DNA of 64,000 bases from Romanomermis culicivorax (lineage: Eukaryota; Nematoda; Enoplea; Mermithida; Mermithidae): positions 868,001 through 932,000 of the forward strand of contig CAWUHX010000131.1 of assembly GCA_963922205.1 (NCBI GenBank), given 5' to 3'. A model generated the notes under the pieces. The model was not told the DNA's origin and ran no database searches. It worked only from the letters and a program-made list of their open reading frames with translations. A program made the position numbers and the translations under genes. Shown one piece after another: positions 23,430-60,148 of this stretch. The number at the start of each line of letters is the position of its first letter. Within the stretch, counting starts at the first letter, position 1.

Positions 23430-25075
23430 ATTTCCTAATTTTATTCGGATTAATCAATCAAATTTGATTTCTTAAGAGTCCTATTGACTCTAGAATATTT
23501 GAAGCCTACACTGTCTCTTGGTCCTGATGGTCTGTGGGCCTTTTTCCTGAAAAAAATTATATCTAGTTTTGGCAGAACCTTTGAGAACAATTTTTGAAAT
23601 TTCATTTAGAACTGGACAATTACCAGATATTTGGAAAACATCAAATGTGGTACCTATTTTCAAAAAAAAGACCCAGCAAAGGTAGAAAATTATAGACCAG
23701 TTTCTTTATGTTGTGTCTCATGTAAGGTTATGGAAGGTATTATAAATGTAGACATGATGGCTTATTTTGAGTCAAATAATTTTCTGAATGATAGACAATT
23801 TGGATTTAGAAAGAAAAAATCTTGTGTCCTACAGCTTTTAAGTTGTAAAACATTATGGGCTAAAAATTTGGATAAAAAAGTAGCAACAGATTCAATTTAT
23901 ATCGATTTTCAGAAAGCATTTGACACTGTTTCTCATGAAAAACTGTTTGGAAAATTAGCTTCCTATGGCATATCTGGTTTTTTATTGAGATGGTTACATG
24001 GTTTTTTATTTAATAGGACTCAACAGGTAAAAATTGGCAATTGCTTCTCTAATCCAATTAAGGTTACTAGTGGGGTTCCTCAGGGTAGTGTATTGGGACC
24101 AACTTTGTTCTTAATTTTCATAAATGATATATCTGATGGTATTAGCAGTGAAATTTATCTTTTTGCTGATGATGTGAAAATATTCAATGCTACAGAAAAT
24201 GCTGAAGTACTACAAGGCGATCTTGTCAAAGTTTATGAATGGTCATTGAAATGGCAATTATCTATTTCTCTGGAAAAATGTTTTGTTTTGCATCTTGGGA
24301 GTAATAACCCCAACGTTGAGTATTATATAAACGATTTTCTGATTCCTACTGTTTTAGAGATGAAGGATTTTGGTGTTATGTTCAATGAAAAATTGTCAGT
24401 AACTGTCCATTGTAATTATGTGGTTAAAAAAGCATCTAGGGTGGCAAATTTGATTTTAAAATGTTTTCACTCTAACTTCAATGAATTAAAAATCGGGGCT
24501 TTTAGATCCTATGTTCTCCCTATCCTGGAATATGGTTCACCACTCTGGAATCCTTGTCTGGTTGGGGATACTAAATTGGTAGAAAAAGTTCAACGAAAGT
24601 TTACAAAAAGACTTTTTGGATATAAAGATTTAAGCTATAAGGAGCGCCTCAACAAATCTGGCCTTGATCACCTTACATTTAGACGTACGTGTATCGACCT
24701 ATCTTACATGTTCTTAATTTTGAAATTTAAAGTTGTTCCACCCGACTTATTTTTCACTTTGAGTCCATTCAATTATCGCGCCTCTAACTTATTTAAATTG
24801 TATAAATCGAAATATAACTCTAACACTTTAAAACATGATTGTTGCTCGCGAAATATTGATGTTTGGAATTCCCTACCCAATGATATCATTCATTCAAACA
24901 ATATGCCCTGTTTTCGGTCTAAATTGAGTCGTTTTTTAAAGCTCAATTCGCACGTGCTTTTGTCACATCCATGAGCTTTTCTATATTAGTCGCATTTACT
25001 CTTGTATTTATTCGAATTTAATAAATTTCTTTCTTCTTCTTGGATTCCAATTTCCTTTCTCAGTAACGTGACCTG
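23430..25075 (+). pseudogene. 5'-truncated, frameshifted CR1-type LINE reverse transcriptase
   Basis: A 447-codon open frame (23631-24974) encodes most of a non-LTR reverse transcriptase. It has YRPVSL, DFQKAFD (about residue 92), SGVPQGSVLGP (about 147), the catalytic FADD (about 178) and ILEYGSPLWNP. The tail has the DVWNSLP motif and ends at a TGA. Upstream codons continue the same protein in other frames (SLGPDG near 23515, then an A-run before DPAKVENY). The copy therefore carries a frameshift at an A homopolymer and has lost its endonuclease part. AATAAA and a TTC-type simple repeat follow at about 25020-25045. The RT and C-terminal pattern fits the CR1/L2 group better than RTE. The clade call is from motifs only. 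Confidence 0.82.
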
Positions 25076-28217: not shown

Positions 28218-31200
28218 GTGAGTTTATTGTTTATTGTGCAGTGTGTCCAGCAATTCATGTGTAGGGTGTAGAGTAAAAACTGCTCATCTCCAAAAGGCAT
28301 GCAATACATGCGCGTTTAATCGTGTATAGAAAACTTATTAAAGGATTAGTTTGACAGTCAAAAGTAATGCGTGCGACAGTTACATGCGAAGGCATATAAG
28401 AAAGCAAAACTTGGAAACTTTTTCGATTTTTCCATATTCCGCAAATTTCGATATCAATGTATGAATAATCTTGGGCGGCTCTCCCAAGAAATTTTGCACA
28501 TTTACTTGCTAGCCACACTTAGCTTGCAAGCCAGAAATTAAACAGTTAATAGAAAATAAAATTGTCCCTTTCATTCTTGTGTTTGTTCTACGTCTTCTCC
28601 AATTGTCATGCACCAGATGGCTGTCACACTGATCTTGCAACAAGATTCTCATATCTTTTAAGTAGTGTGTTGCTCTAGAACTTTACATAAAATTAATGTG
28701 AACCACATTCATTTTATTTCATTTCTTAAGAGCAATCACTATTTCAGGGTTGAAATTATGTGTTATCCGTAATTTCCTTTGTAGGTATTGCAATCGAGAT
28801 TTTGAAGACGAGAAAATTCTTATCCAGCATCAGAAAGCTAAACATTTCAAATGTCATGTGTGCTTCAAAAAATTGTACACTGGTCCCGGATTGGCCGTTC
28901 ATTGTCAAACGGTTAGCTCTGCTTGTTTCCCGTACGTATACTCGAATTGGCTTGCACTCAATGTTGATATTTATTTTTAGGTTCATAAAGAAACAATCGA
29001 CAAAATACCAAATTCTTTGCCCAACAGGGGTTCAACGGAAATTGAAATTTACGGCATGGAGGGTATACCGCCGGCCGATTTAAAGAAACACGAAACTGAA
29101 GTTCTCGGAAAAGAAGGTACGTATTGGAAATTAAGCGATAGCGTAGTGTATCATTCGCACTATTTTTAGTTGAAGATCCCGCTGAAAAGAGAGCTAGGTT
29201 AGAGTACGCCATGAGCATGATGCCAGGAATGATGCCCATGATGCCTGGAATGGGTGGATCGTCTATGGCCGGTAAGAACAGATGTCAAGCGAGATATTTG
29301 TAGTCGAGAAATATTTAGATAATATGTGAGTAGTTTTTCGTTTCATCAAATCCTGTTTGATTCGGAAGGGTAGATAAATATTCAGAGAGTATAAAATCAA
29401 AAAAGGTAGGTTGTCTGATATTCGACTTTTATTATCTTCATCTTATTATTTCTATTTTTTAGTTTGCAGAGAGAAGTTCGTTTTTGTCTGTTGCCATTAT
29501 TTTTTCCACAAATGATACCTTTTGTGCAAAAAAATTCTGAAATGTGGAAAAAAAATTTGAAGACTTTCCACAAATGCGGAAATTTTTTTCGACAGATTAT
29601 TTGGTGACACCGTATGAGTATAACCAAGAATTCAGACCAAATATCAAAATTTGTCGTCAAATATAGTAAAATTTCGTTCAATCAATCAAAAATATCGCTC
29701 AACACTGTGTAATTATCAGTATCATAATCTTCACTGTCATCATCCGACAATTCTATGAATACACGAAAATGCTTTATACCCGTGAAAGCATTATAGAAAC
29801 ATTATTTTCTGATTCTGGTACTTCACCACTCTCACGTCGATCAACTTGTCGATTAAAATAATTTGTAAGTTTATTAGACATCTGAATAAAGAAATTATCG
29901 ATAGTCGTTATTATTCACTAAGAGCATCAAAATAAATTTGAACTTAGGTATTGAATAAATTTTCCTTTATGAGTATGACTATGATGGAGTGAGTTTATAC
30001 GGTAGGTTCGGTTCGGTATCATTGCTAATTATATGCACAGTCCTGCATTTTCATTGTCAATAAACACTCTGTTTCATAAGTTAAGTCTCGAAAATTTCAT
30101 AATTACTTGGTAGATAGGTACCATACATGCGGGCCCAGCCCGAGGATTATCCCCAGGCTGGGCCTAAGGTCAGGGATTTACTGTCAGTCGATTTTGGCCG
30201 ACCAGTCTTCTGCTGTACAATCAGGGGTTACATACATGCACACGGTCAAGGGTCCAAGGGTATAGAAAATGACCAAAATTAGTCCTTCAGTGATTTTTTT
30301 CCAGAAATCAGATATATGATAATTTTTTTACTTTAAAATGAAATATTATTGCTTTTTGTATCAAAATTACTTAACAAAGTTTTTTTCTGACATTAATCAT
30401 GAACGGTGTTTCAAATTGAACTTTTTTTTGTAATCTAATCTTTTCAAAATGTTTGTTGCACTTTACTTTACCGAATTTTTGGCCTATAGTAAAGTTGTGC
30501 CAAATTTTTGTTCTATGGTAAACTTCTGCGAAATTTTTTAGGCGAGGGTAAATCCATTCCCTGTCCATACCCTGTGTGCATGTACGATTGGTTGCAAGTT
30601 TTTTGTGGTTGTCTAACTGACAAATCGATATTCACACTGAACAGTAAAAGTGTCAGTCAGTATAAATAACTGAACATCATGTTGGTATCTTAAATAACCT
30701 GTGCATTTATAAATTCAGGAAAAAAATTTGCTGCCCAATGATTTTGGGATTCATTCCCGCCCTGTAATTGGTACCATGCACATGTATGATAGGTACTACC
30801 TAATTAAAACACGATAATGTTAAATGTCGCTACCGCTACAGATATCAAGCGAATGTGGAAAGATAGTCGGGGGAAAAACAATGTCTGTTGCTTAATAATT
30901 TTTCCTAATTTTGTGTTTTTATTTTCTTATGAAGTTCATTCTATTTCTGTTAAAGGTATGCGATACGCAGCTCCAGTGATGCCGGGGATGCCAATGATGC
31001 CACCTGTTCCGCCCATGGTAAGGTAGCATTCTAAAGTTCCAAGTTTCTTTTTCAAGTGTAGATAATCATTCCAAAACAAGAACGAAACGAAATATAATTC
31101 TGGCAATAACTTCTAGAAAAGAAATTTTTTTAAGATTAAATCTTTTGTTGTGTCTAAAATCACTCATTTGTTTTAAAATTTGTTTCTATAGAATTCACTG

Positions 31201-33182
31201 AAAAAGCATCAGTATGTTCGCCAGTGGAAGTTTTATGATAACTTTATCAATCGATTTATACGCTTTTTGCCTAAAGATACATAACGTCAACTGGCACTTG
31301 AATTTTTGGTCTTTTAAGCCTCCGATGCCTGCCACATCGTCGTCTATTTTACCGCCTAGCCAACCGCCAGTACCGCCCAGTCTACCGGCCACTTTCCCGG
31401 CTTATAGCGCTGGTGGCACTTTTCCTCCGGCCATGTCGACACCATTTTTGCCTCCGCATCAGTCGTTGACGTCTTTTAGCACTGCTTCACCGAATGCGGC
31501 CCTTGCGCTGGGGGCAGCCGTTGGGACGAAAATAATGCACCCAGACGAAGATGTTTCATTGGTAATTTTTTCACGCTGAGCTGAGTTAGTGTGGACTGTT
31601 TTTAAAATTTATTTCGTCTATCACTGTCTTGATTTTTTGAAAAAGGCTTGAATCGTTGAATGAAAATTCATATTACTGTGTTCCAAAATTACTAGTCTAT
31701 CTAATCGTTCGCGAATTGGTAAAGAAAAATTATTTGTGTGGATTTTTCGGAATATCTCAGTTACTGCCCATGTTCTGCATAGGTAATGTAGGCAAACGTA
31801 CAGTTATTCTTAATTCTAGGGAATAGATGAACGAAAACTTTTGTGGACTTTCGCCTTGTGATGTGTCAACTTTTTCTCTCTACTGCAAGAAATACAAAAC
31901 AGTACTTTTCTCCTAAGTCTTGGAAAAACTTTTTCATTGGAAGACATTTTAATACGGAAATTCTATTGGTCTTGCAGCAGAATAAAAGCCTTCCCATTGC
32001 AAAATTTCTTGAAACCAAGGGCCGGTTTCATCAAAGAGGCTTAAGCTCCAGCTGAGCTACAGCTTAACTCTATATGGTATAACATTGCTGTTAAGCTGTA
32101 GCTCAGCTGCAGCTTAACTCATGCACACAAATCATATCAGGAAAGTTAAGCTGAGGTTGAGCTGTATGTAGCTTAACTCTTTAGGTTATAACATTGCCGT
32201 TAAGGCGCAGCTCAGCTGCATCCCGATATGTTTTGTGTGTATGACTTAAGCTACAGCTTAAGCTGCCGCTCAGCTGGAGCTTAAGTCTCTTTGATGAAAC
32301 CGGCCCCAGTATTTGTCTTGCAATATTTCTTCGCCTTAAGGAAGAACATCGAGCGACTTTTCCCAAATATACTGCGTGGAACAAAAGTCATCGGGGTCAG
32401 ACAGGCGCAGGTAGTGTAAAAGCTAGTTTAGCGTCAGTTGCTGTATCGAATGTCGAGTCATATTCTAAAAGTAAGTTATTTCTGACTTGCATTATAATTT
32501 TAAGGTAAATTGTACATAGATCGCGAACGAAGTTTGCACATGTTGTGGATATAGAGACCTTTTCCAGATATCAGGTAGTTTAAATTTATGAAATAAGTTT
32601 ATTGCCAACTTTGTACACGAGCTGTTACTTCTGGCATCCAAGTTAGTACTCTAGTAAATGCATTCACTTGAATCCTATATTGTCTTTAAAGTTTAGAAAT
32701 ATCATAGGAAAATTAATTTCATAATGTTATAATACAAATATTTCCTTTGAAGTATGTTTTCTCACAATTGCAAAAAACGTTGGCATTGAAGTATCCTCGG
32801 TGTTATTTTGGATCAAATCACAAGCATCAGTTTCCTTTTCAGGTTTCCCTGCAACATCTAATCCTTCGGGCTATGGTTTTAATCCTATGAATATGTCGGG
32901 CTATGGTATGTTCCGGAATATTTGATATAATTATTCTTTGATAGACAGTGCAGCACTTAGTGTTAGAAGATTTTTCTGAAGTTCCAAATGTAAGATCTGA
33001 AAATTTAGAAAACCTCCAGTGTTGATGTTCTTATCTAGAGCTGTAATTGGTCAACAATTTTCAAATTTAATTTTGCGTCGATAGACTTATTGATTCGTTT
33101 CATTCGACACTTTTTAGGATATGGAGCAAATCAACCAGGATTTAGGCCACCTTTTAGCTCCCAACCAGGGTCGCGTTATTAA
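28177..33182 (+). CDS. BuGZ: BuGZ / ZNF207 zinc-finger protein, complete gene span
   Basis: BuGZ binds spindle microtubules and Bub3 and supports kinetochore attachment and spindle assembly. It also works with splicing factors in interphase. Nine exons join in phase to 322 residues: 28177-28217, 28785-28911, 28981-29116, 29170-29271, 30956-31017, 31319-31561, 32341-32470, 32843-32905 and 33118-33182. The N-terminus [16 protein letters not shown] is diagnostic. Two C2H2 fingers use C13, C16, H29, H34 and C37, C40, H53, H58. [11 protein letters not shown] follows. Then come a Met/Pro-rich low-complexity region and the Bub3-binding GLEBS motif ([18 protein letters not shown], about residues 230-247), split by an intron. 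The end is Gly/Pro-rich. Vertebrate proteins are longer, the difference being in the disordered region. Exon order and phases make this secure. Confidence 0.95.
28785..28911 (+). CDS. BuGZ: BuGZ exon 2 (both zinc fingers)
   Basis: Acceptor tttcctttgtag. Donor ACG|GTTAGC (weak but phase-correct). It encodes [20 protein letters not shown] through LAVHCQT. Confidence 0.94.
28981..29116 (+). CDS. BuGZ: BuGZ exon 3
   Basis: Acceptor tatttttag and donor GAAG|GTACGT. It encodes [17 protein letters not shown] and [15 protein letters not shown], a block conserved from insects to humans. Confidence 0.95.
29170..29271 (+). CDS. BuGZ: BuGZ exon 4
   Basis: It follows a 53-nt intron. Acceptor cactatttttag and donor GCCG|GTAAGA. 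It encodes [20 protein letters not shown] and a Met/Gly/Pro-rich stretch. Confidence 0.92.
30122..30788. mobile_element. CATACATG miniature element (667 bp), exact 8-bp target duplication
   Basis: The ends CATACATGCGGG and GCACATGTATG are inverted over the terminal 8 bp. ATAGGTAC is exactly duplicated at 30114-30121 and 30789-30796. It lies in BuGZ intron 4 and holds a second smaller element (30231-30586). No coding frame is present. Confidence 0.8.
30231..30586. mobile_element. CATACATGCACAC element nested inside 30122-30788
   Basis: Left end CATACATGCACACGG and right end CCTGTGTGCATGTACG are inverted repeats. The flanks AGGGGTTA and ATTGGTTG match at 5 of 8 positions, so the duplication is only suggestive. 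Confidence 0.55.
30956..31017 (+). CDS. BuGZ: BuGZ exon 5
   Basis: Acceptor tctgttaaag and donor ATG|GTAAGG. It encodes a Met/Pro repeat, [19 protein letters not shown]. Confidence 0.85.
31319..31561 (+). CDS. BuGZ: BuGZ exon 6 (Pro-rich, first half of GLEBS)
   Basis: Acceptor ttggtcttttaag and donor TTG|GTAATT. A Pro/Ser/Ala-rich region ends in [11 protein letters not shown], the acidic half of the Bub3-binding GLEBS motif. Confidence 0.92.
32019..32307. mobile_element. 289-bp near-perfect palindromic miniature element in BuGZ intron 6
   Basis: The left end GGGCCGGTTTCATCAAAGAG and the inverted right end (CTCTTTGATGAAACCGGCCC) are a 20-bp inverted repeat. The arms continue inward with CTTAAGCTCCAGCTGAG against CTCAGCTGGAGCTTAAG, and CATGCACACAAA against TTTGTGTGTATG near the centre. 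The whole element could fold as one hairpin. It is rich in AGCT/CAGCTG words. It ends 33 bp before BuGZ exon 7. Confidence 0.85.
32341..32470 (+). CDS. BuGZ: BuGZ exon 7 (second half of GLEBS)
   Basis: Acceptor ttcgccttaag and donor AAAA|GTAAGT. It encodes [19 protein letters not shown] and an Ala/Ser/Val stretch. It completes the GLEBS motif begun in exon 6. Confidence 0.92.
32843..32905 (+). CDS. BuGZ: BuGZ exon 8
   Basis: Acceptor tttccttttcag and donor TATG|GTATGT. It encodes [20 protein letters not shown]. Confidence 0.88.
33118..33182 (+). CDS. BuGZ: BuGZ exon 9 (terminal)
   Basis: Acceptor cgacactttttag. It encodes [20 protein letters not shown] and stops with TAA at 33180-33182. Confidence 0.9.
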
Positions 33183-35026: not shown

Positions 35027-35146
35027 ATGGTATCGGTTCGATTGGTGTTTCGCAGATTGAATATTCTTGTAGTTGGCGTGGGCACCATACATTTTTTTGG
35101 GACAAAAATCGGGTGTGTAAGCAAGGTTGTCGAGACTAGCATGCAA
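35027..35146 (+). CDS. IMMP2L: IMMP2L exon 1 (membrane anchor, catalytic Ser)
   Basis: ATG at 35027, 40 codons, donor CAA|GTAAGA in phase 0. It encodes MVSVRLVFRRLNILVVGVG and ends in VETSMQ, the catalytic Ser region. Family proteins continue with P at this point, as exon 2 does. Upstream 5' UTR exons cannot be excluded. Confidence 0.85.
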
Positions 35147-38100
35147 GTAAGATGCCGTTTACAGCTTCGTTCATGAATTTTTAGTTCAAATCTCGGCGTC
35201 TAAATGTTAATTTCGAGAAATTGTCTTCCCAGATGCTTTGGTAGTTTACATGAAACTTTCTGTTTTCTGGTTTTCTTCAGCGGCCGTGTGCTAAAACTTA
35301 GTCTGTGCAGCAGCTAGTTGCTATGTTAAGGGTTTCGATAATGCTACTTTGTTTTATGTTAAAACCTGGGGAGCTCCATCTCTGCTGGTATGTAACATTT
35401 ACCCAGCAGAAACTATGTTTCAACATATGGCTCCTGAATCGGAATTTTCTAGCCGACATTCAACAGTACGATCGACAATGATTGTGTATTTTTGAATCGC
35501 TTCGCGGTTCGAAATTTCGACGTCCAGAACGGCGATATAGTAGCTTTCATGTAAGTTTTATAAGGAAGATTCTCAGAGGAAATATGTTTGTCAAAACTTT
35601 TTTATGACAATTTTATATTAATTTTTGGTAATGCATTTGTTTTCTCACGTTCAAAAGCTTCATTAGTTCGAAGACAGTATTGCATTTTATTAAAAACAGG
35701 TGCGTTCAACATTAGAATGGCAGCATGAAAATACGAACAATATCACAACGTAATCCACGAAATTAAAAATGTACATCTAGGATATATAAGACACACGGTA
35801 CATTTAATTAGGCACGGGCTATTTTTCTGAAGGGCTGTCAGAAAAATTAACATATATTCGAGTAGAGAAGATAAATTTTCGGGATGTATAACCTTTATTT
35901 TTAGTGTTTAGAATTCGACATATGCTAATTTTAGGAAGGAATTTTCAGATTTCCTGTCCGTTATCTCAGTTTTTGTTGGAGCTGTCACAAATTGACATTA
36001 TGTTTGATCCGTAAAAAGCGCCGAAAGCTGACCCGTTGTCAGACGGATTCACATAAACATTGCACGACGTCCTGGGCGTTGGGGGCACGCTGTCGAACAA
36101 AAATGATTTGCAATCTTGCGGCGTGGCTACGTAGTTGCACCCGTGAAAATGAGATGTGCAGATGTTACCGTAGAGCGTAGGTCGGCGTTTTTTCAAAATA
36201 ATGACCACGATTAGCAGGCAAACAAGAACGAAAACCATGACAATCAAGGTGACTATGATGGCCAGATTTCCGATTTTTTCTTTATCGTCGAAAATAGTTG
36301 TCTCTGTTGTTGCTGAAGAATTTTTCGTACGGAATTCTACGCAGCTAAAAATTTCTTCTCGATTGTCCAAAGACAAGCAAACTTCGTAGGCGGTACCAGG
36401 TTTCAAATTTTTGATTTGGTAGCTATTGCTGTACGGGAATTTGGTTAGCGGTTGAATTTGATTCTCATCCAAAGACGCTGACATTTCTTTAGTACGGAAA
36501 ATTAGTTTTAGATTGTCGAACACAAATTCATTGAGATCATTATCGATTCTCCATGTGATTTGGACGGTACGATCGGTCATGTGACTGGCCATCAATTCCA
36601 ATCTCGGTTTATTTTCCGTTCGGAAGAATTCTATCGTAGCTGTCGCTCGTCCCGAATCGTTTTCGGCCAAACAAGTATAATTTCCCGATTTAGCGTCCCG
36701 CTCTAAAATTAACGTTTCGCCGCTGTTTTTCTGTTCTAAAATTTGGTTATCGGGCGATAACCAAAAAAGTTTCGGTTTTGGTTCGCCGATCGCTCGACAA
36801 TCGAAAATTATTTTTCGATCGTCAACCAAAATTGCGGCGATTTGAGGTTGGCATTTTTGCGGTAAATCGTCCGATTTGAACGAAGTAAAAAGTTTGAATT
36901 TATGTTCGAAAGGTGAATTGCAAATCATACGATCGACGTCGCGAATTTTTAAAAATTGTTGGTCCAAAATTCGTCGTAAAAATTTCGAATTACAGTCACA
37001 TGCTAATGGATTACCGTAGAAACTCATTTCGGACAAATTTCGTAAATTTTTAAGCACAGTTTGTGAAATAGATGACAAATTGTTATTATGTAGAAATAAG
37101 TGAGTAATTTCTTGAGTTTTCAAAAACGCCCAAGGGTCCACGTAACTCAAATGCGGGTTATCGTGCAAGTCGACGATTAATAATTCGGGTAAATTTTTAA
37201 AGGTAGATTTTTCGACCAAAGTTAATCGCGGCATATAATTGAAGCTGACGTCTTTCAAATGCGGAAAATCGGTAAAATCGTTGGATTTTAAGGATTTCAA
37301 CGGATTGTGGTTCATATTTAAAGAATTTAAGCTTCTTTTGAGTTTGGATAGCGCTTCTTTGGGTATTTCAGGTAGAAGATTGTAGTCCAAATTCAAAATC
37401 TGTAAACTTTGTAAACCTCGGAATACATTTTTGTGCAAGCGTTGCAATTTATTGCCGTTCAAATCTAGACGCCTCAAACTCGGTAAATTGTCGAAAGCGT
37501 CCGTTTGCAGGAACGACAAAAAATTATTGTCCAACCGAACTTCGCGTAAATTATGCAAATTGGCGTTTAACCACCAATTCGGCTGAACGTATTCGATCCG
37601 GTTGGCCGACATTTCTAAAGTTTGCAATTTCAATAATCCGTGGAACGTTTGATCGCCGACTCCATTTTGTATGTAGTTGTTCGATAAAGCGAGACGTTCC
37701 AAGTTGAACAACCCGGCGAATGTATAATCAGCCAATGAAGTTAAGCGATTGTTATTCAAATCCAAAATTTGCATATTATAAAATTCACGGAACTGACTAT
37801 CTGATCCCAAAGATTCGATTTTATTATCGGACAAATCCAAATGGATCAAATCGTGCAGATAGATCGGCTTATCCTCGAACAAATCGGATAAATCGTTGTT
37901 GCTCAAAAGTAATATTTGGACGTCTGGCGGCAAATTGGCGGGAAATTCGGTCAAATTTCGGTTCGAGCAATCGATGGTACGAAGATCATTCTGCAGAAAC
38001 CATTCGGAGCTGGCCAAAGAACAACGACAGTGTTTGGGGCAGTTTGCAGGGTTCCAAAAGCCTGAGGACGACCCTGTTGATCCGCAGATTATTGAAACCA

Positions 38101-41100
38101 CAATCAAAGTAAAGTAAAACATCATCTGAAATTGAGACCCACGGGATTTTCAAGTCACAAAAACTAAAGCATGGCTGTAAAATTGAAATGTCACTGGCTG
38201 AAACCTGTTTTAAATAGATCACAAGATTAAAAGATATGAAAAATCGATAAGCAAGAATATTTTTAAAATTTATATTTGGATTTTTCAATTTTAATTCTGA
38301 CTTGCAATTAGATAAGTTTTGAGAACCGAGTATATTTTCAGTTTCATGTTTAAATCTTTTTATATCCACGACCGGTATTACTGTACGTCAAATGTGCAGA
38401 GAAGAAATGGAAAAATAGCCTCGCGGAATCAAGTGATATATAAATATTTCCTTCTTAACAGCTCCCTCGAGTATATATTCCGATGTCTACAATTATTTCA
38501 AAAACCTGGATATCTCAAAGATTTGCCGTTGCAGGAGGAAAAGATAGAAAAATAACCAATTTTCGTCACTCCAGCACTATAACGAAAGATGCACAATAAA
38601 CATCGAAGCTCTTTTTCACTTATAAAATGTCGATAATGAAAAAGCGAGAGATGTTGTAGGAGAGATTTCCTCATTTCGCGTAATGGCCTTTTTTCTAGCG
38701 TGATTGTCGAAACTAGAATATTCCACAAAAAGACTGCCCGAAAAATAAATACAAAATTGTCCCCAAGGTATTCTGATTGGATTGAGTTTCCAGTTTCGTT
38801 CTCGATGCGCGTTTACTGTAGCTATCTGCTTTATACCGAGACAACAATGATTAGATTAAACAACAAGTTTGATGAGCTTGACTTCAGGCTATACTCACGT
38901 TGAGCAGATTTGTCATTGGGAACGAATTGGTCGAAATTTTTATTTATGCTCCTAAATTTTATTTTCTGATCACAAGTTTCACCAATGAAATTTAAATATT
39001 GAAAAGCTATCTTGTAAAATTCAAACGGCATTATTCGAAAATAGACAAGGAAAATTAAAATTAACATAAAAACTAGTACGATTACAAGTGACTTACAATT
39101 TCTTGCGTTCTTGTGGATACTGTAGACACGAAAGTGTAAATCCTTATCTGTACACACAAATCTATCCACTTCCAGACCCAAAAATGTAGAACTCTTTCTC
39201 GAAGTATGAACTATTCTAAAAATATAATACCTAGTCCTTTTCTTATACGTTACTTCCTTGATAACTCACTCTCTCTAAGACACGCGCTGGTTTGACACTA
39301 GATAGAATGATCATTAACAAGGAAATGAGAGACGAGAAACATCGAGCGCATAAAAGCGAAAGTCTCCAGGCTACTACCTAGTTTTAATGTAATTTTCGCA
39401 ATTATACACGCATCTAAATGGCAGTTTTGTCCTCGGGCTACTGGTCGTTCTGTCGTAGAAGGTATTGTAAGTAAAATCCCCATACACAAAACTACTGTAT
39501 ACACGCGAGCCTGAACATACAGCAGGCCTCCGTGGGAATATCCCTAAATCCATTCATTACGATTTTTTACGGTATTCGTAGAAGTACAGGTATTTTTGTA
39601 CATGACAAAACAAATACAGGCCATCACGTGCACTTTTGGTGGAAAGATCTCTGCTCGAGTGAACCTCTTTCACTTAAATAAATAATAACAGTTCGGAAAA
39701 AGAACAGGTGGCCGACGGTCATCGTCATCTCTTAATCGGCCCTTTTTGAGAAAGTCCGTGGGAAAGACCTCGAACGAAGACGAAAATCTCGTAAAACTCC
39801 AAACATGTGTTTAGCGGATGGGAATGGAGAAAAATTAGCCCAAGGAATAGTGGTAGCATTACGAAAAGACGAAAGAATCATTCGTGGGGATTTTCAGGAT
39901 GAAATCAAAAGGAATATTGAGGCCGAAAATAGACATTAGTTCGTGAGAGTAATGCGCATCTGCTACATTGAATAGATGTCCCACGAGGAGATTAGGCTAA
40001 AATTTCTGTTATCAAACATAAAAAAGCCAAGGATTAGAATTCGAACATTATTCCACCAGCTATATGAGCGTTCAGTAAGCTTCGAAAAATACTGATATAC
40101 TGATAAAGCTTAAATGTTGCAATTTGGTATAGCATTTACTTTATCTACTGTACCTACTTTTATCATAATTTCATATGCGTAACGGCTGTCACTGTTGAGC
40201 TATTCGTATTTACACTTTTTCTGTCGTAAATTTTTACATCATAAGTTGAAAATTAAGTACACATTGCAGACTCAAATAAAAGGTCAACGCATGTTTCAGG
40301 AATTTTCTGGGAATGTTAAGGTTACAAAACATTCAAATATGTTTCATTCTGTGCTCATGTGCTCATAAGCGTTGTTCTCGAATTCGAATATCATTTATCG
40401 TAATTAAATTTATTTAATAAAACAGAACATGTTTATCTATCACGTGTCTTAATTTTTTCTTCAGAAACCCCGCCAATTCAACTGAAAGGTTCATCAAGCG
40501 CGTTGTTGCTCAAGAAGGTCAGCGAGTTAAGTAAGTACACCGCTATTTTTTCCTGACTGACCGCTAGACCGGTTTCAGGAGCTTGAAAGACTTTTTTAGC
40601 TTGAGGATTTACTACCGCCCAGAAACCAAGTTTTATCTGACCATTTCAACACTCCATTTTGATTCCAAATGAAAATGACGTAGTGATTCATGTAGAAGTA
40701 GCTTCAGCAGCAGACATGCATGGCAAGCATTTTCCGGGGGTTGAGGATCCTCGGACTTTTTTATCGAGAGAGTGAGGGTGATTGAGCAGAAAAACAAAAA
40801 ATTTTTTTCCACAAGCATGTTTTCCATACAAAATAAGTAAAAAAGCAATTAAAAAATTGTCTAAAAAAGTTCAGGGGGTGTTTGATGATTTTTTTCGTTC
40901 AGAGGGATAGTGATCGACTGAAGCCCCGGCTCCGGAAAATCCGGCTTATTTGTCGACCTCCAGACTGGACGGTGGATAAAAATGGCCGGATGCCGGAGGT
41001 TTTTAGGTCAAATTTAGTAGATGTCTATACAGCCGTGATTTCAATATTTTCTGTTATATATTATTAGTACGATAGATAAAATTTCTAGCATCAGTCAATT

Positions 41101-44100
41101 AACTCGAGTAAATAAAATGTTGAAGATTAGAGATGCAACTGGTAGAGGAATATCGGGTCCAAAATTTCAAGAATATTGGGTCCGAGTCCATGTTTTTAAG
41201 AATATCGCATCTGGGTCCGAGTCCAGCGAAATAGTCGGGTAATTTCGGGTCTGGGTGCATTATATTTTTCAAAACGCTAATCTATGTGGCATTCTTTTAC
41301 TTTTGTGTATTTCTTCATATAATAAAAACTAGTGATGTTATGGGGTTCAAAGTTTTGAAGATATCGGGTCGGGTTCAATAAAATAGTCAGGTAATTTCGG
41401 ATCTCATTTCGGGTCCGAGTCCCCGATACATCTCTAGCATCGGGTAGCATATTTTGAATATTCCAGGTCCAAAATTTTAAAAATATCGGGTTCGGGTCTG
41501 GGTTCAAATTTTAAGAATGCGGGTCCGGGTCCTGCAAAATAGTCGGGTAATTCCGGGTCCGTTATATTTTTCCACGCGCTAATCTATGTGACATCATTAA
41601 GACACGATTTCTGAGAGATTCGACCTACTGCTCCATTGACCTGTGATAACTTGTAAATTGATAATATCTGAAAATGAGATATTTTGAGTGGTTTTACATG
41701 CTGAGTATTGTGACAGCATTCATTCGGCACAAAAGTCAAGATTCGCATACCCACAGTATACCAAATGTTGGAAGTTTTGCAGTTCTTGGGCTTGTTTCAA
41801 ATTGTAAATATCTGAATGTTCATTACATATGTTTATTACATATGGTATGAAAAAATTTCCAATATTTTACCCTACGCTTTTTATGCTATTTTAATGTGTC
41901 AAAAATGAAGTCGAAATAACCCGAAAAAGTAAAAAGTCATTTGAAGCTTTTTTGGGCACCACATATAAGATTCCACAGAATTTTTTCTTCATTTCTGTAG
42001 CCACTGATGTCCAACACATTGTATTAAAATTTAAATCAGGTTTGTGTACCGTTTTAGAAGCTGTAGATGTGTGGACATCCTGAGAATTGAATGAAAAATC
42101 CTGTTTAATGTCACTAAATATGTTTTCAACGGGATTCAGGAACATGAAAAAATTAGCAAAAAGGTGCCTTTTTTGGCCTTTTTTGTGAAAATTTTCGACT
42201 TTTTCGACCCTCCCAAAAAAATTGCGGGTTTACCCCCCCCCCCCAACTGGTTGAACCTCTTACGTATGTACAGGAAACATTTAAAAAGTTCGTATTGGAC
42301 AAATAAAAGGAAATAACGTGGGTCGAATCACTGGTACAATTTAATCGATCTATTCATAATGGTTGTGCAACAGAATGTCGCCGAAGATATGCCTCCAAAA
42401 TTCTTTTTTTGGTAATTCAATTGAATAAGTCGAAGCTGCGAATAATGTTTCAAAGTGAATGACGTCTCTCTGACCCCGGCCTATGTTATAAGGTGTAAGA
42501 AAATTCTTTATAATTGAAGCCCCCCCCCCCCCGTTTCACGCCACTTGAGGTTAGCCAGATAGATAAATGAAATGGCAGTCGATTGCCTTTTAAATACAAC
42601 AAAGTGCATTGGAATAACTCTTGCGTTTTCCTGTAAACAAACGTCATGAAATGACTCGATTTCTGAAATGTTATGAAAATTAACATTTTTGACCCTTCAT
42701 TTGAAGCATGTCGTTCAGCAATTATCAAAGCTAGATAAATGAAAGTTTAACAAGACTTCAAGCCACATTTTCTCTTCTAATTTATTGTATAGGTAATGAC
42801 GAATCCTATTTTCGCTGAACTTTATTGGTTGGGGATTTTTTTACGTTCAAAAAGATATTTGAATGACTCTGCAAAGTGTGCCAACCGCTACAACCCCCAA
42901 AACGGTACACAAATCAGATTGAAATTTTAACACCTGTTAGACATAAGTGCCTACAAAAAGGATGAAAAAAGATTATACAGCATCCGATGAGAAGGTGCCC
43001 GGAAAGAGGACCAAATGATCTTTTCGATTTTTCCACCTCCTTTCAGACACTTTAAATAGTGTAAAACGTGTAAAATACAAAATTAGAGAAAAATTTCGAA
43101 GCAGTATGTTAAACCACACAATATACTCATTTTTTGGGTGTGATTAATTTTCAACTTACCATATTCAAGATGGAACTTCTCAGAAACTGCGTCTCAAAAT
43201 TGATGTGGAAGAGACAACATCATTTCAAAATCGTATCGCTTGGTTGAGGCACAATAAGTGGGTTTGAGTCACTAATACATACATAGTCTTCCGTGAAATA
43301 TGAATGACTAAGCATCTCTATAATTTCGTTCTTGATCCTTAGATCAATATTATTGATAAAATTCTATATTGAAAAGACGACGATTACAAGGAAACCGGCC
43401 GAAAAACGGTTATTTGTGAAATATAACTTGGTTGCTGTAGATTTTTAATCTAAGTCAGTCTGACAATGATCTAAGCAAGAAAGTGTTGATTTGTTACTTT
43501 TTATATTTCAATAGTTAATTGATGCGTCACCACATTCTTTAACATGAGTATTTGTTTTCAGCTGAACAACTGTGTTATACATGAGACGCGAATCAGAACT
43601 GTAACAATTTCTTCAGGTCCAACAAAATAGTTGGGTGATTTCGGGTCTCATTTTGGGTACGGATACCCGAGACATATGTAATGAAAAGACGTCGTTATAT
43701 CACACTTATGATGAGGTATTTATCTCAAACTGAGCTGAAAGAACATTGGTGTACGATCCATACTAGTAGTTTACAATGGAAATCTCGTGTTCAAATTCCC
43801 AAGAAATCATTCCTGAAAAAGCACATCAGCCATGCCCCAGCAATGAGTAGTTGCTATGACCCGGGGTTTTTCCCGCCTTGTTCGGACTTTTTTGGCTGTG
43901 GGAAAATTTTTTTTGGCATTTCCCGCGCACAACTGAAATTTTTTTGGACGTTTCTGCTGCTTTCGGTGATGAAAAGGCGCATTTTGATGCAATTCAGAAG
44001 GTCAAAATCTCAAATTTTCCCGGCACTTCGCGTCGGCAATGACAATAATTAATAATATTCACTTAATTAAGCTGAATTTATAGAATACATTTCCAACATT

Positions 44101-47100
44101 TCATAAGCTTTTGTGCTCACAAATTCTCTGATACTATGCACCGGAAAAGTTGAACGTTCATTGTTTTCATGATTTAAACTTTCGCATCTTATTTATCAAT
44201 TAATAATGTTCAGTATTAGGTTTGAATTTTATTGGAAATTGAGATTTTTTATTGATCTCAGAAAAAGGCAGGATAAGAGTTGAAAAGACTCATTTTCCAG
44301 CGTTCCACAATATCCACATCTATAAATCAAATCAATTGTGGAATCAGTTAAAATTTATAAATCTTCAGCTCTAATCACCGAAATGCCAGTAACAACTATT
44401 AATTTTACTCACTCATTTTTAAAAAAACGTTGAGCTTGAAAAGCTGATGCGTTTCAAGATCTACAATTTTATATCATTTTACACAGAGGTCCCCAAGGTC
44501 GAAAATTTAGGTAGGGGTAAAATCGTGAATTTTGAGGGTAGTACTTGAAATATGCGGTGACCTTTTTTTTTTTTGCTCCCAATTTTTTGCCAAGGAGGGG
44601 GGAGTTGTAGTACTCTAACCACATAGAACTTACATAAATGAATAATGCCCCTACTTTATGCTATTTACAGTCAAAAAACATTTACTACTTCAACTCCATT
44701 TTCTAGCTCCCAATCATGCAACTTTAATGCACTAATTATACGTACAGAATAGTCACGCTTTGAAGACTGTTGTGCCAACTGATTCCTGCACATTTCAAGA
44801 ATCGGGCACAACATACCTTTGGAAACATTGTTTCAACCAGCAGTATGGGTGATTAGCTGATTAGGCTTGGAGCAGTGCTTCCATTTGAATGTCCTGATGC
44901 TGAATGTGACTTTAGTATTATTAATTCCATTAGACTATGAATTACTAGTTTCAAACCAAGTACCACTCCTGATCCACGTCAACAGACCTCACATGTCTCA
45001 ACTCATAGCAGGAAAGTATGCCACAGCTTGGGTAACCATATGCGCACAGAAGACCCAACGCAGAAACGGGGAAAAGGAAAGGAAAGCATGAAGAGGCAGC
45101 ATTTTAAGAACATAATGTTTTTCTTCCCAAGGGGCGATTTTTTGATTAATCACAATACATAAGTCATTATTTCATCTCCCAATTATATTTATAATGATTT
45201 TCTACAAGTAGTATATATTAATGTGCTGATGTCCTTTCCTAAAAATCGCTATATGGCACAGAAGTTGCATACTTTCCCATTATCATTTGCTCAGTAAATG
45301 TGTCAAAAAGAGCAGTGAGTAATTCCTCAGAATCACACATTCTGCAATTTTCCTCGAATTAGTATAACCTACTGGGGAGAGGATGAAGTCTACCAAAATT
45401 TTTTGGTATAGTGAGCTGTTTTTATGGGGGTAGTAAATGAATTTTCAAATCTAAGACGGGGGTAATACCCCCCCCCATGGGGTGCTCTGATTTTACACAT
45501 TTTTGCAATCAACAATTTCCGCTCATTTTGCATATTTTTCTTCAACAAACTCGCCTCCGGACACTGACTTAAGATCTAAAGCTGAAAACAGTCGGAATGA
45601 AAGTTGTGAAGATGGAGTCAGCCCTTCTGAAAATAAATAGTGATATAGTTTAAAAAATAAAACGTTGATGGAGCTCAAGTTCAGGTATAGGATTTGTAAC
45701 ACTATATTTCCTTACGTCTCCGCCTTCACCCGGCCTCTAGCACCAGCCGGAGTCGGAGGTGAAAGTTCCTCCGGCCGGAGGTAAAATTGGATCCCCGGTC
45801 GATCAGATGTCAGGGGGCTTCCAGGGTCTCATGTAGGGAGTTAACCCCTGCCCGATTTGCATGTATACTCAGCAGAACTATTAAGGTAGTGCAAATAGTT
45901 TTTGGAATAAAATTGTAAAAAATATCTATGTTATTAATTTTTGTCAGCAAATTTGAGAAATTTAAATAAAAAATTGATGCTGTTCTCAAAATCATTTATA
46001 TACGTAATGCGTTTACTATAAAATTCGTTACCAAAAAAAATTCTTACAGGTCGGTTGGGTACGTTATTTTCAGTTCTGTGATATAATTTGGCAGAAAATA
46101 GTAAAATAGGAAAGAGTAAGTACGTGATTTCGACTTTTATTATTTAGGAGCATTTCGAGAAAACAACTATAGTTTACTTCTAAATTCCCACTAGTTGTTC
46201 GTCACCTAATATCTTTTGAGTGGACACTTCTTTGAATATTTCTCAATCGATCAATCGCTCATTATTTCTCAATAGTATTTCACGAAGAATTTCGGGTTTT
46301 CAATATTTCATCTGTATGGTGGTTTTCTTGCATTGAGGGCTACTAATGGCGAAACATATCTAATACCGGCGGGTCATATTTGGGTTGAAGGCGATAATTT
46401 ATTAGCTTCGAGAGATAGCAACATGTTTGGTCCGGTAAGTTTACAGCAAGCCATAGAAATTAACTATTTTTTTCTGTCGGTTCTGTGTTCCAAATCGAGA
46501 TTACCGATCAATGATGATGAGAATACTAGGGTTTGGGGGCAAGACTACTCAGCACTCAAAGCCATACTTTTAAAGTGAGATTAGAGATTACTTAAGCAAG
46601 CAAATCATATGCTCTCGGGGTATTTCACTTTCAGAAAGTGTGTTGGAATAAGGCATGTACAATGCACTTTCTTACGAAAAATAATACTATTCCTAATTTA
46701 TGAATCAATGGAGAATCTTAGCTGAAATGAAATGAAAAGAAAAAGAATCATCTTTTAAATTTTCCTATGAATTATACATGGAATATACATGAAAGATTAA
46801 TGGAATATACATGGAAGATCAAGGGTAGGTTAATCTATTTGTTAGTATGTTAGCCGCAACTCGGGCTAAAGTTTTTGGTGTCTTTTTCAGGTATATTTTT
46901 CTACAAGTATACTATTAAGGTCTAAATAACACAAGGCAGAGCAGCGAAGTAAGAGTTGCAGGAGCAATCTTGCAGTGTATGCTCCACTTTTTCTACCAGA
47001 TTTTTTTGTTCTCTTTGTTTTATCCCACAACTACTTCTAGATTGCTTCGGGGTTACTCGCTTTCCACTCCTTTCACTTTCTGTGATACTACGGTGGAGTA

Positions 47101-47916
47101 AGTTAGGACAAGATGAAAGTCCGGCGATCATTTTTTGCATATGGCTTTTGTAGTGACTTCTTCAATATTTTTCTCTCAGGGGGAAGTCTCGACACATTTT
47201 CCGCATTTTTGCTCCAGGTTTCCTCCTTATCTGCTCAATGATACGAACTTACTTTCTCCACCGTCTATGATAAAATGTTTTAATCTAGCATTACTCCGAA
47301 ACTGCTGCTCTGTCTTCTGTGATTCGGTCCTGAAAAGGAGTGTCCGCATGAATAGTCGACTCCTAATTTGTTCAGAATGACCTACAAAGCATGGAACAGG
47401 ATTCGCCTTCTAATTTCATTGTCTACATGCATTTAAGGATTAACAAACCGTTGTAGAATTCATATTCACATCGTTTGAATGCCGTTAACTAAGTAGAAGT
47501 AGATATATCAATTTTATCCTCCAATGGGAGCTGTAACGGGCCGATGAATATGAAATTAGAAATCTGATATCAAAAATTCGCTGGAACTGCATTTCCTAAC
47601 ATTTTGGAGGCGACGGCGCAATTCTGCCCACAAGGAAACGGAGCTCCATGATGTTTTTTCATGATTTTGATTCACTATCGAAGAAAACGAATTTGGCGTT
47701 TTCCGCATATAAAAGATATCCGCTCCCTGTGGAGTGTATGCCCTTTGACGGCTCCTTTTCCACAATAACGATCTATCACTGATCTTGTTGTTGTTTAGGT
47801 TTTCTTTTCAGGTTCCGAAAGCTCTTATTTACGGAAAAGCCACGCACATCATTTGGCCTATGAAAAGGTGGACAAAGCTGTCGAAACATCTGCAAAGCGA
47901 GCGCGTTTTTCCATAA
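35027..47916 (+). CDS. IMMP2L: mitochondrial inner membrane peptidase subunit 2, complete gene span
   Basis: IMMP2L is a type I signal peptidase of the mitochondrial inner membrane. It trims sorting signals from proteins delivered to the intermembrane space. Five exons join in phase to 161 residues (human about 175): 35027-35146, 35453-35550, 40465-40530, 46338-46434 and 47812-47916. An N-terminal membrane segment (LNILVVGVGTIHFFG) precedes the catalytic Ser in ETSMQ (S38). The catalytic Lys lies in FIKRVVA (K84). GDIVAFINP, PAGHIWVEGDN, DSNMFGP and GKATHIIWPMKRW are family blocks. The DSN.FGP form points to subunit 2 rather than subunit 1. No single open frame reveals the gene. It was assembled from conserved blocks and splice phases. 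Intron 2 contains the antisense LRRN-type receptor. Confidence 0.93.
35453..35550 (+). CDS. IMMP2L: IMMP2L exon 2
   Basis: Acceptor ggaattttctag and donor TTCAT|GTAAGT. It encodes PTFNSTIDNDCVFLNRFAVR and ends GDIVAF, matching the family block before the Lys exon. Confidence 0.93.
35894..35899 (-). terminator. polyadenylation signal of the nested LRRN-type gene
   Basis: TTTATT on the plus strand reads AATAAA on the minus strand, about 70 bp beyond the receptor stop codon. Confidence 0.6.
35966..38125 (-). CDS. LRRN: LRRN-type leucine-rich repeat, Ig and FN3 transmembrane receptor
   Basis: This is a single-exon, 719-residue type I membrane protein of the leucine-rich repeat neuronal family, likely a cell-surface adhesion or recognition receptor. 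In order it has: a signal peptide (about 1-18), a Cys cap CPKHCRC (29-35), about 11 leucine-rich repeats (about 65-370), an LRRCT cap starting NPLACDC (372-378), a C2-type Ig domain (C443, W455, C485 in GNYTCLA), an FN3 domain (about 505-602), a membrane helix (about 619-644) and a 75-residue tail. Blocks such as NPHLSYVDPWAF and MSFYGNPLACDC align with vertebrate LRRN1-3, which are about 710 residues. It lies antisense inside IMMP2L intron 2. The start is the first Met before a hydrophobic signal. I see no intron in the coding region. Confidence 0.92.
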   Translation of the reverse strand: MMFYFTLIVVSIICGSTGSSSGFWNPANCPKHCRCSLASSEWFLQNDLRTIDCSNRNLTEFPANLPPDVQILLLSNNDLSDLFEDKPIYLHDLIHLDLSDNKIESLGSDSQFREFYNMQILDLNNNRLTSLADYTFAGLFNLERLALSNNYIQNGVGDQTFHGLLKLQTLEMSANRIEYVQPNWWLNANLHNLREVRLDNNFLSFLQTDAFDNLPSLRRLDLNGNKLQRLHKNVFRGLQSLQILNLDYNLLPEIPKEALSKLKRSLNSLNMNHNPLKSLKSNDFTDFPHLKDVSFNYMPRLTLVEKSTFKNLPELLIVDLHDNPHLSYVDPWAFLKTQEITHLFLHNNNLSSISQTVLKNLRNLSEMSFYGNPLACDCNSKFLRRILDQQFLKIRDVDRMICNSPFEHKFKLFTSFKSDDLPQKCQPQIAAILVDDRKIIFDCRAIGEPKPKLFWLSPDNQILEQKNSGETLILERDAKSGNYTCLAENDSGRATATIEFFRTENKPRLELMASHMTDRTVQITWRIDNDLNEFVFDNLKLIFRTKEMSASLDENQIQPLTKFPYSNSYQIKNLKPGTAYEVCLSLDNREEIFSCVEFRTKNSSATTETTIFDDKEKIGNLAIIVTLIVMVFVLVCLLIVVIILKKRRPTLYGNICTSHFHGCNYVATPQDCKSFLFDSVPPTPRTSCNVYVNPSDNGSAFGAFYGSNIMSICDSSNKN
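38126..40464. other. rest of IMMP2L intron 2 and upstream region of the receptor
   Basis: AT-rich and free of recognisable repeats, unlike most of the window. It should contain the promoter and 5' UTR of the minus-strand receptor, but I cannot point to specific elements. Confidence 0.4.
40465..40530 (+). CDS. IMMP2L: IMMP2L exon 3 (catalytic Lys)
   Basis: Acceptor aattttttcttcag and donor TTAA|GTAAGT. A 66-nt exon encoding (I)NPANSTERFIKRVVAQEG, with the general-base Lys in IKRVV. Too short for standard open-frame lists. Confidence 0.94.
41128..41575. repeat. degenerate GGGTCC/TCGGGT tandem repeat with TAGAGATG ends
   Basis: Units of the form ATATCGGGTCC...GAATATTGGGTCCGAGTCC...AATAGTCGGGTAATTTCGGG recur about six times. 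TAGAGATGCA at 41128 and CATCTCTA at 41436 are inverted, so at least part is a hAT-like element rich in subterminal repeats. A fragment recurs at about 43615-43675. Confidence 0.6.
41597..43197. mobile_element. TTAAGACAC element (copy 2), interrupted by a small insert
   Basis: It is homologous to 5028-7000 in the same orientation. It starts TTAAGACACGATTTCTGAGA and ends CAGAAACTGCGTCTCAA. It is internally shorter than copy 1 and carries a 126-bp insertion at 42143-42268. Confidence 0.7.
42143..42268. mobile_element. 126-bp CATACC-family insert with empty site known
   Basis: Its right half (GACTTTTTCGACC, C run, AACTGGTTGAACCTCTTACG, TATG) matches the right end of 50289-50969. The left end starts CATGAAAA. 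The flanks TTCAGGAA (42135-42142) and TACAGGAA (42269-42276) match at 7 of 8. The homologous uninterrupted site TGCAGGAA lies at 5583-5590 in copy 1. Confidence 0.78.
43858..44470. mobile_element. hAT-like element copy, right end lost
   Basis: It begins near CCGGGGTTTTTCCCGC. It carries CATTTTGATGCAATTCAGAA, the hairpin CCGGCAC-TTC-GCGTCGG (about 44019-44036) and CATTTTCCAGCGTTCCACAA. This order and wording match 62756-63746. Confidence 0.6.
46338..46434 (+). CDS. IMMP2L: IMMP2L exon 4 (GDN box)
   Basis: Acceptor cttgcattgag and donor CCG|GTAAGT. It encodes ATNGETYLIPAGHIWVEGDN and DSNMFGP, the most conserved block of the family. Confidence 0.95.
47812..47916 (+). CDS. IMMP2L: IMMP2L exon 5 (terminal)
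   Basis: Acceptor ggttttcttttcag. It encodes VPKALIYGKATHIIWPMKRW and a short tail ending ERVFP, with TAA at 47914-47916. The THI.WP..RW block matches the C-terminus of subunit 2. Confidence 0.94.
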   Translation, partial: VPKALIYGKATHIIWPMKRWTKLSKHLQSERVFP

Positions 47917-58987: not shown

Positions 58988-59686
58988 TGTTTATCTGTCC
59001 CGTCACATCATTTCCTACCTACTGTTTTTTCGCCAAATCGGTGTTTTTTGGAAATACGAAAAAATTGAGCTCTCTCGCCAAAATCGAAATTCATTTCCCC
59101 GGACAATTTTTTCGCTGAAAATACATGCAAACATTTTTTGTGCATGGAACATTCAAAGCCTTTTTAGGAAAAAAAATCTATCTGTTTGGATTGGATACCA
59201 AACCAAATGAAACGAATGGTAAACAAACGAACATCAATTATTAAAATTCAATTGCTTGGGGTTTTTAGCTGAAACTTAATAGTATCAAGTAGGTCAGTGA
59301 GAAAATTGTGAAAAACCAACGATTTCATATTCAGCAAAATCGAGAAATGTATTCCGGGGAAATGTGAGGAAAAATTTTTGACTTGAACTAGAATCCCGGT
59401 CAGTAATGAAAAATAATATAAATTTTGTGTCATTTAGATCGCTGTAATAATAAAATATAAGCCCGCCTCATCATTAAGACAGATGCAGGTGTTAGGGCGC
59501 AGCCCAATACATCAAAATGAAAAAGTGGGAATGGAAGAACAGTCCATCGCATTAAAAAATTAATTGCCTTTTTCGTTTCAGCAAAACGCTTCAAACTCAA
59601 AAATGAGTTCTTAATTCAAAAAGTGTTTCTTAATTCTGTGTTGTTTATTTTAAAATAATCAAATTGTCAAATCATTTTGCTACATT
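58988..59686. other. region upstream of GAR1, nothing recognised
   Basis: AT-rich DNA with short shadow frames. It must include the GAR1 promoter and 5' UTR. No core promoter motif stands out. Confidence 0.4.
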
Positions 59687-59824
59687 ATGTCATTCCGTGG
59701 TCGAGGCGGTAACCGAGGCGGCGGCGGATTCGGAAGAGGTCGCGGCGGAGGTGGTAGAGGTGGTTTCGGTGGCGGACGTGGACCGCCCCAAGATCTAGGT
59801 CCCCCCGAACAAGTTGTCGGTACG
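59687..59824 (+). CDS. GAR1: GAR1 exon 1 (Gly/Arg-rich domain)
   Basis: ATG at 59687. Donor ACG|GTAAGC at 59825 gives VVGT|LG with the acceptor after CAGAG. An alternative donor after 59819 (TCG|GTACGG) with acceptor TTCTTCAG gives VVE|LG, which is closer to the family. Both stay in frame. Confidence 0.88.
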
Positions 59825-60148
59825 GTAAGCTTTAGCTATTTTCCTTCAAAAATTTCACGTCTTGAACTTTTTTCCTTCTTCAGAGTTGGGCGTTTTCACT
59901 CACCCATGCGAAAATCAATTAGTTTGTAAATGTACGACGGAAAAAGTGCCGTATTTTAATGCGCCAGTTTTCTTAGAAAATAAACAACAAATCGGCAAAA
60001 TTGATGAGATTTTTGGATCGCTCAGGAATCACGTAAGACAAATATTATTGAATCGGAGCATTATACGCTAAACGCTTATATTTTTTAGTCAATCTCTGTA
60101 ATTTTATCGGACGACGTTAAAGCTTCTTCGTTCAAAGAAAACGATAAG
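59687..60148 (+). CDS. GAR1: GAR1, H/ACA snoRNP subunit 1 (3' end missing), gene span
   Basis: GAR1 is one of four core proteins of H/ACA ribonucleoproteins, which make pseudouridines in rRNA and snRNA and also serve telomerase RNA. Exons 59687-59824, 59884/59886-60032 and 60089-60148 are visible. The N-terminus is a Gly/Arg-rich (GAR) domain ([20 protein letters not shown]). The core starts at GPPEQVV and includes [43 protein letters not shown] and [10 protein letters not shown], all diagnostic. The remaining core segment (usually a YIDP...LLP...FLP block) and the second Gly/Arg-rich tail were not found before 64000, so the next exon should lie to the right. Introns 1 and 2 are about 60 nt. 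Confidence 0.94.
59886..60032 (+). CDS. GAR1: GAR1 exon 2 (core)
   Basis: It begins [12 protein letters not shown] and ends GSLRNH, donor CAC|GTAAGA. With the alternative splice it starts at 59884 (AG added). It carries the HPCE and VPYFNAP core signatures. Confidence 0.92.
60089..60148 (+). CDS. GAR1: GAR1 exon 3 (core)
   Basis: Acceptor atattttttag and donor AAG|GTAAGT. Twenty codons, [20 protein letters not shown], matching the S.KLS.N..ASSF block of GAR1. Confidence 0.93.

Follow-up and report, generated by a model that had tools for sequence, protein, structure and literature searches.

The 64,000-nucleotide stretch of DNA analysed here (the window) holds a real and intact gene nest, in which an LRRN-type receptor gene with one coding exon lies on the minus strand, wholly inside the second intron of an IMMP2L gene on the plus strand. 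The original prediction had proposed a full five-exon IMMP2L enclosing a complete single-exon gene for a 719-residue receptor, and this architecture was borne out. The five coding exons join in frame up to a stop codon, the introns between them are all GT-AG, and the product matches Peptidase_S26; the proposed borders of the host intron, with exon 2 ending at 35550 and exon 3 starting at 40465, are exact, and the open reading frame of the receptor, at 35966-38125, places the whole guest within that intron and antisense to its host. The parts of the nest are, in their order along the window:

35027..35146, plus strand, IMMP2L coding exon 1 (120 nt), ending with the serine block (..TSMQ) in phase 0
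35453..35550, plus strand, IMMP2L coding exon 2 (98 nt), ending after GDIVAF in phase 2
35551..40464, plus strand, host intron 2 of IMMP2L (4,914 bp), enclosing the receptor gene
35966..38125, minus strand, receptor gene of the LRRN type with a single coding exon (719 aa)
40465..40530, plus strand, IMMP2L coding exon 3 (66 nt), containing the lysine block FIKRVV
46338..46434, plus strand, IMMP2L coding exon 4 (97 nt), PAGHIWVEGD..DSNMFGP
47812..47916, plus strand, IMMP2L coding exon 5 (105 nt including the stop), ATHIIWPMKRWTKL

The host exons, whose borders we picked by eye, span 35027-47916 and encode 161 amino acids followed by a stop; they start in phases 0, 0, 2, 2 and 0, and the pyrimidine tract at the acceptor of exon 4 is weak. 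The protein matches Pfam Peptidase_S26 (E 4.8e-22, 79 bits) and falls in the class of S26 peptidases of about 160-180 amino acids with serine and lysine blocks; alignment places Ser38 and Lys84, which we take to be the catalytic dyad. A protein search with the host peptide gave four matches among 66 candidates, the sole named one being a mitochondrial inner membrane protease subunit 2-like protein from Ostrea edulis (38% over 91%), and an alignment with a hand-entered human IMMP2L sequence gives 70 identities in 160 positions. The assignment to subunit 2 draws on this one named match and the hand-entered human sequence, IMMP1L being outside the comparison; at the sequence level, the host appears to be an IMMP2L orthologue, a subunit of the mitochondrial inner membrane protease. 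That the pair could be an artefact of assembly or a pseudogene has a negligible probability, and we reject it: the window contains no N, the reading frames and splice borders are intact, and the domains are conserved.

Within the host intron, 416 bp separate the stop codon of the receptor from the donor site and 2,340 bp separate its ATG from the acceptor site, and the first poly(A)-like hexamer, about 67 nt past the receptor stop, is also inside the intron. The antisense open reading frames across the guest (e.g., 37708-38109) we take to be shadow frames. The intron had also been called unusually free of transposons. Its self-repeat cover within the window is indeed 0%, compared with 37% for the next intron and 17.9% for the whole window, but 17 of 237 overlapping stretches of the same size are just as clean and coding sequence makes up 2,160 bp of the intron; the cleanness stands, its unusualness less so, and the low repeat content is weak evidence for shared regulatory DNA. 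Interspersed repeats occur in IMMP2L intron 3, where 41596-43069 recurs at 5027-6179 and 43867-44456 at 62761-63599 with 67-81% identity, and a 454-aa reverse-transcriptase ORF at 23610-24971 (RVT_1, 120 bits) is probably a retrotransposon remnant. The window further contains pieces of an IQSEC/BRAG-type gene on the plus strand at 11361-17843 (Sec7 at 11361-11696 and 13163-13381, IQ_SEC7_PH at 17598-17843) and a GAR1-type gene at 59654-60068, with a glycine/arginine-rich first exon without a Pfam match, the ORF after it carrying a Gar1 domain (69 bits). Plus-strand exons at 28702-32505 include a C2H2 zinc finger, its Pfam match below the cut-off, and proline-rich exons; by eye, they presumably resemble ZNF207/BuGZ. 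Rfam gave no match at gathering scores.

The receptor has a signal-peptide-like start followed by an LRRNT, LRRs, an LRRCT, an Ig domain, an FN3-like region, one transmembrane helix and a tail of about 70 residues. Pfam recognises the LRRNT (30.6 bits, cut-off 25.8), the LRRs (LRR_8, 140 bits) and the Ig domain (Ig_3, 31.3 bits, cut-off 30; I-set, 30 bits, cut-off 23.7), and the LRRCT cysteines were recognised by alignment. In an AlphaFold2 model (12 aligned sequences, mean pLDDT 76.9, pTM 0.66), the LRRs form a regular solenoid, with 12 regular LRR strands at 71-344 and one more at 366-368, followed by an Ig-sized domain and, less confidently, a second beta domain; the FN3-like region contains six strands at 508-599 of low to middling confidence, and a helix at 615-645 coincides with a hydropathy peak at 616-649. 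The LRR, Ig and transmembrane parts of the predicted LRR-Ig-FN3-TM layout thus hold, whereas the FN3 part has a Pfam score of 21 bits, under the cut-off of 25, and the less confident second beta domain. The tail is modelled with low confidence and has, by eye, a generic YGNI near the membrane and no di-leucine; those of LRRN1-3 carry YXXphi and di-leucine sorting motifs (PMC2225406; statements cited to this and other PMC papers follow the portions of their texts that were available). The guest would belong to the type I cell-surface receptors with an LRR-Ig-FN3 build and would probably serve recognition between cells, either in epithelia or in the nervous system.

The first protein search with the receptor gave 236 matches from 7,986 scored candidates. 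Among the 120 matches listed, the top four are unnamed proteins of 38-47% identity and the next four are vertebrate LRRN-kind proteins, with a fifth ranking eleventh (26-28% identity); turtle LRRN2 and fish LRRN1 are named so by their source, the other three being unnamed fish proteins. A search with residues 262-510 found eight matches, all 703-772 aa long, and the one named protein, from the nematode Plectus sambesii, is the closest named relative of the receptor among the matches. A scan of viral contigs with P0001 found no relative. Our trees were based on 24 rows, made up of the 19 among the 120 listed matches that read as Ig-bearing, P0121-P0124 from the search with residues 262-510, and the window protein; a 22-row tree drops P0107 and P0025, and a 21-row tree drops P0107, P0065 and P0090, rows with long branches or of unclear family. 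The trees contain no row named LRRN3 and none from LRFN, LRRC4, AMIGO, FLRT or kekkon.

Among the families sampled, the receptor groups with LRRN, as had been predicted. In the 22-row tree, the window protein and the eight matches to residues 262-510 form a clade of nine, sister to the five vertebrate rows with support 100/99; the latter form one 100% clade, and the LRRN grouping stands apart from LINGO (two rows) and the LRIG-type proteins (four named, two unnamed). Tests on the same tree rejected the receptor as a member of LINGO (Lrrn6), with the clade of nine joined to the LINGO rows (p-AU 0.0005), and as a member of LRIG, with the clade joined to the LRIG-type rows (p-AU 0.0007). The support of the LRRN branch is 96/91 in the full 24-row tree; in the 21-row tree, the addition of P0025 lowers it from 100/99 to 95/91, and this analysis came with a program warning that long branches meet. 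P0025 is placed there beside the window's clade (88/83), so that it falls inside the set of nine and five rows, which by itself is no clade of the best tree (p-AU 0.07 for the set without P0025). P0025 is a divergent LRR-Ig protein of 822 aa with, by eye, an FN3-like region and a transmembrane segment, and could represent an LRRN from a different phylum. The letter make-up of the window row departs from that of the alignment in all three trees.

Pairwise comparisons point in the same direction. The full-length scores of the five vertebrate LRRN rows against the window protein, 195-216 bits, are the highest outside its own clade, followed by P0025 (156), LINGO (136 and 121), the LRIG-type rows (103-119) and P0107 (96). 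Of the columns diagnostic of each family, the window protein shares 41 of 201 with vertebrate LRRN, 12 of 125 with LINGO and 12 of 79 with LRIG, a moderate excess for LRRN. The tail motif YxPL/F is found in all five vertebrate LRRN rows and in five of the nine rows of the window's clade, P0001 having YSAF in its place; of the tree rows examined, it is absent from the window, P0002, P0003 and the LINGO and LRIG-type rows. It is nevertheless conceivable that the guest comes from another LRR-Ig family, be it LINGO, LRFN, LRRC4, LRIG or an unnamed one, and is LRRN-like in layout only. Among solved structures, LINGO-1 matches best by both profile and fold, no LRRN1-3 chain being among the matches listed; it heads the structure matches of the whole model, ahead of the NGL-2 and SALM2 ectodomains, all with low TM-scores, and searching the PDB with the LRRCT-Ig part returned mostly other Ig proteins, including LRFN1/5 and LINGO-1. 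On the LRRCT-Ig-FN3 part alone, the two families score alike (LRRN 21-41 bits, LINGO 28-41 bits), and LRFN, LRRC4 and AMIGO are outside the tree. Set against this are the 22-row tree and its AU tests, the full-length scores and the diagnostic columns, as well as a survey that, in its available portion, joins Lrrn1-3, Lrrn6 (LINGO) and Lrrc4 as neighbours (PMC2235866), and we consider an origin in another family improbable. The guest is taken, on sequence grounds, as a probable co-orthologue of vertebrate LRRN1/2/3 and not of LRRN3 alone.

Human LRRN3 sits in intron 3 of IMMP2L (PMC2913944, PMC4255718), antisense to it (PMC3936185), and the two nests appear to use the same intron. Mapped onto the hand-entered human protein sequence, the IMMP2L introns of the window correspond to human CDS positions 135, 239, 305 and 408, the host intron being that at 239, phase 2. 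The human exons 2 and 3 are 137 and 104 nt long (PMC9249242) and the ATG of the long transcript is in exon 2 (PMC7105681); given two 5'UTR bases in exon 2, as seems to be the case, these lengths yield borders at 135 and 239, while the literature searched contained no direct statement of the codon at which the human intron lies. The original prediction had likened the window to the mammalian arrangement, and the host intron indeed equals human intron 3 in place and phase by this mapping; the nests further share the host, the guest family, the opposite orientation and a similar length. The single coding exon of the guest has a vertebrate parallel too, the ORF of the 716-aa chick Lrrn1 being contained within one exon (PMC2225406), but such ORFs are also found in FLRT, LRRTM and LINGO genes, and this feature alone says little. 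They differ in that the intron is 4.9 kb in the window and large in humans (PMC4255718), and the window guest is 26-28% identical to the vertebrate LRRN rows.

From these likenesses we infer common descent. An ancient origin of the nest is very likely, a judgement based on a single genome from outside the vertebrates and a hand-entered sequence of the human protein, and we hold with good confidence that an LRRN gene already lay within IMMP2L in the last common ancestor of protostomes and deuterostomes and that this nesting was passed down. Following the genome duplications in vertebrates, the LRRN3 copy would then have kept its IMMP2L host and the LRRN1 and LRRN2 copies would have lost theirs. 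Such a vertebrate history fits the nesting of LRRN1 in a different host, SUMF1 (PMC2913944), and the state in frog, where the host of LRRN3 is absent and LRRN3 is retained (PMC3933685), from which it follows that guests can outlive their hosts. Losses have to be assumed in fly and worm, since a 2007 survey, in the portion available, has Lrrn1-3 clustering with mouse members only and none in either species (PMC2235866). A chick study regards tartan and capricious as orthologues, with 26% similarity of the LRR part (PMC2225406); we reject these as the only invertebrate kin of LRRN, as that view is based on LRR similarity and the window protein has both an Ig domain and the LRRN grouping.

The same arrangement could also be produced by convergence, with an LRRN gene, perhaps retroposed, entering the same IMMP2L intron independently in both lineages. 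The one coding exon of the guest fits retroposition, and LRR genes, often nested in vertebrates, have been suggested to be mobile: among 91 analysed nested pairs, 19 were lost in frog or chicken, and 12 of these 19 had an LRR guest (PMC3933685). The position of LRRN1 in a different host, SUMF1 (PMC2913944), also speaks for convergence. Frequent nesting of LRR genes raises the chance of nesting but not that of IMMP2L as the host. Convergence would have to account for the same host, intron position, phase and opposite orientation in the window and in humans; by our reasoning, a second insertion is very unlikely to have picked one particular host among thousands, a particular one of its four coding introns and a particular one of two orientations, and we consider independent insertion even less probable than a misassigned family. 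Common descent remains the preferred explanation.

Why an inherited nest would have persisted is a separate question: most likely, regulatory DNA of the receptor lies in the host introns, the guest is trapped by its host, or both. The products of the two genes are probably unrelated in function. Shared regulatory DNA holding the window pair together is plausible because, in humans, LRRN3 has been listed as the target of a regulatory block and IMMP2L as a bystander, like DOCK4, at two loci (PMC6906185). Alternatively, the pair may descend from a common ancestor and yet have been kept by entrapment alone, with no role for shared regulatory DNA: most rearrangements that free an intronic gene would break its host, nesting has been viewed as largely neutral (PMC3786989), and the host encodes a mitochondrial protein that has no relation to the receptor. 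The frog, having lost the host and kept the guest (PMC3933685), shows that the bond can be undone, and an analysis in humans names LRRN3 as the regulatory target with IMMP2L as a bystander (PMC6906185); we regard entrapment alone as a serious possibility, while leaning slightly against it. A broader proposal, which we put forward tentatively and with somewhat more doubt than belief, is that the nest predates the bilaterian radiation and has been maintained for >500 million years because enhancers of the receptor are distributed across a mitochondrial host. LRRN1/2 would then be vertebrate copies that lost the host, IMMP2L intron variants linked to neuropsychiatric disorders would act through an ancient receptor control region, and the pair would be among the oldest gene nests known.

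To our knowledge, few nested gene pairs are conserved across animal phyla. The nesting of Mab21 in Lrba/Nbea (Tsang 2009, as cited in PMC3786989) similarly has a guest in a large host across metazoans and a proposed regulatory linkage, but its genes are unrelated to those of the window. The insect gene 2mit, in timeless2, is likewise an antisense, intronic LRR transmembrane gene, with neural expression and a proposed enhancer; it differs in having 16 LRRs, two exons and, in the available description, no Ig, and that nest dates back to the split of Hymenoptera and Diptera (PMC3786989). LRRTM1-3 in the alpha-catenins are also LRR receptor genes lying antisense in one conserved intron, although of early-vertebrate origin and from other families (PMC3933685). 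For the LRRN3/IMMP2L pair outside vertebrates, we found no report in the available portions of the literature; subscription papers and supplements, such as lists of ancestral microsyntenic pairs, were beyond the search.

If the proposed history is true, the LRRN family would date to early bilaterians, despite the lack of a fly or worm member in the 2007 survey. It would also mean that a neurodevelopmental receptor has been tied across phyla to a mitochondrial host, IMMP2L, that is linked to autism and Tourette syndrome (PMC4255718, PMC3936185), and would provide invertebrate loci in which the control DNA of the receptor is separable from the host gene.
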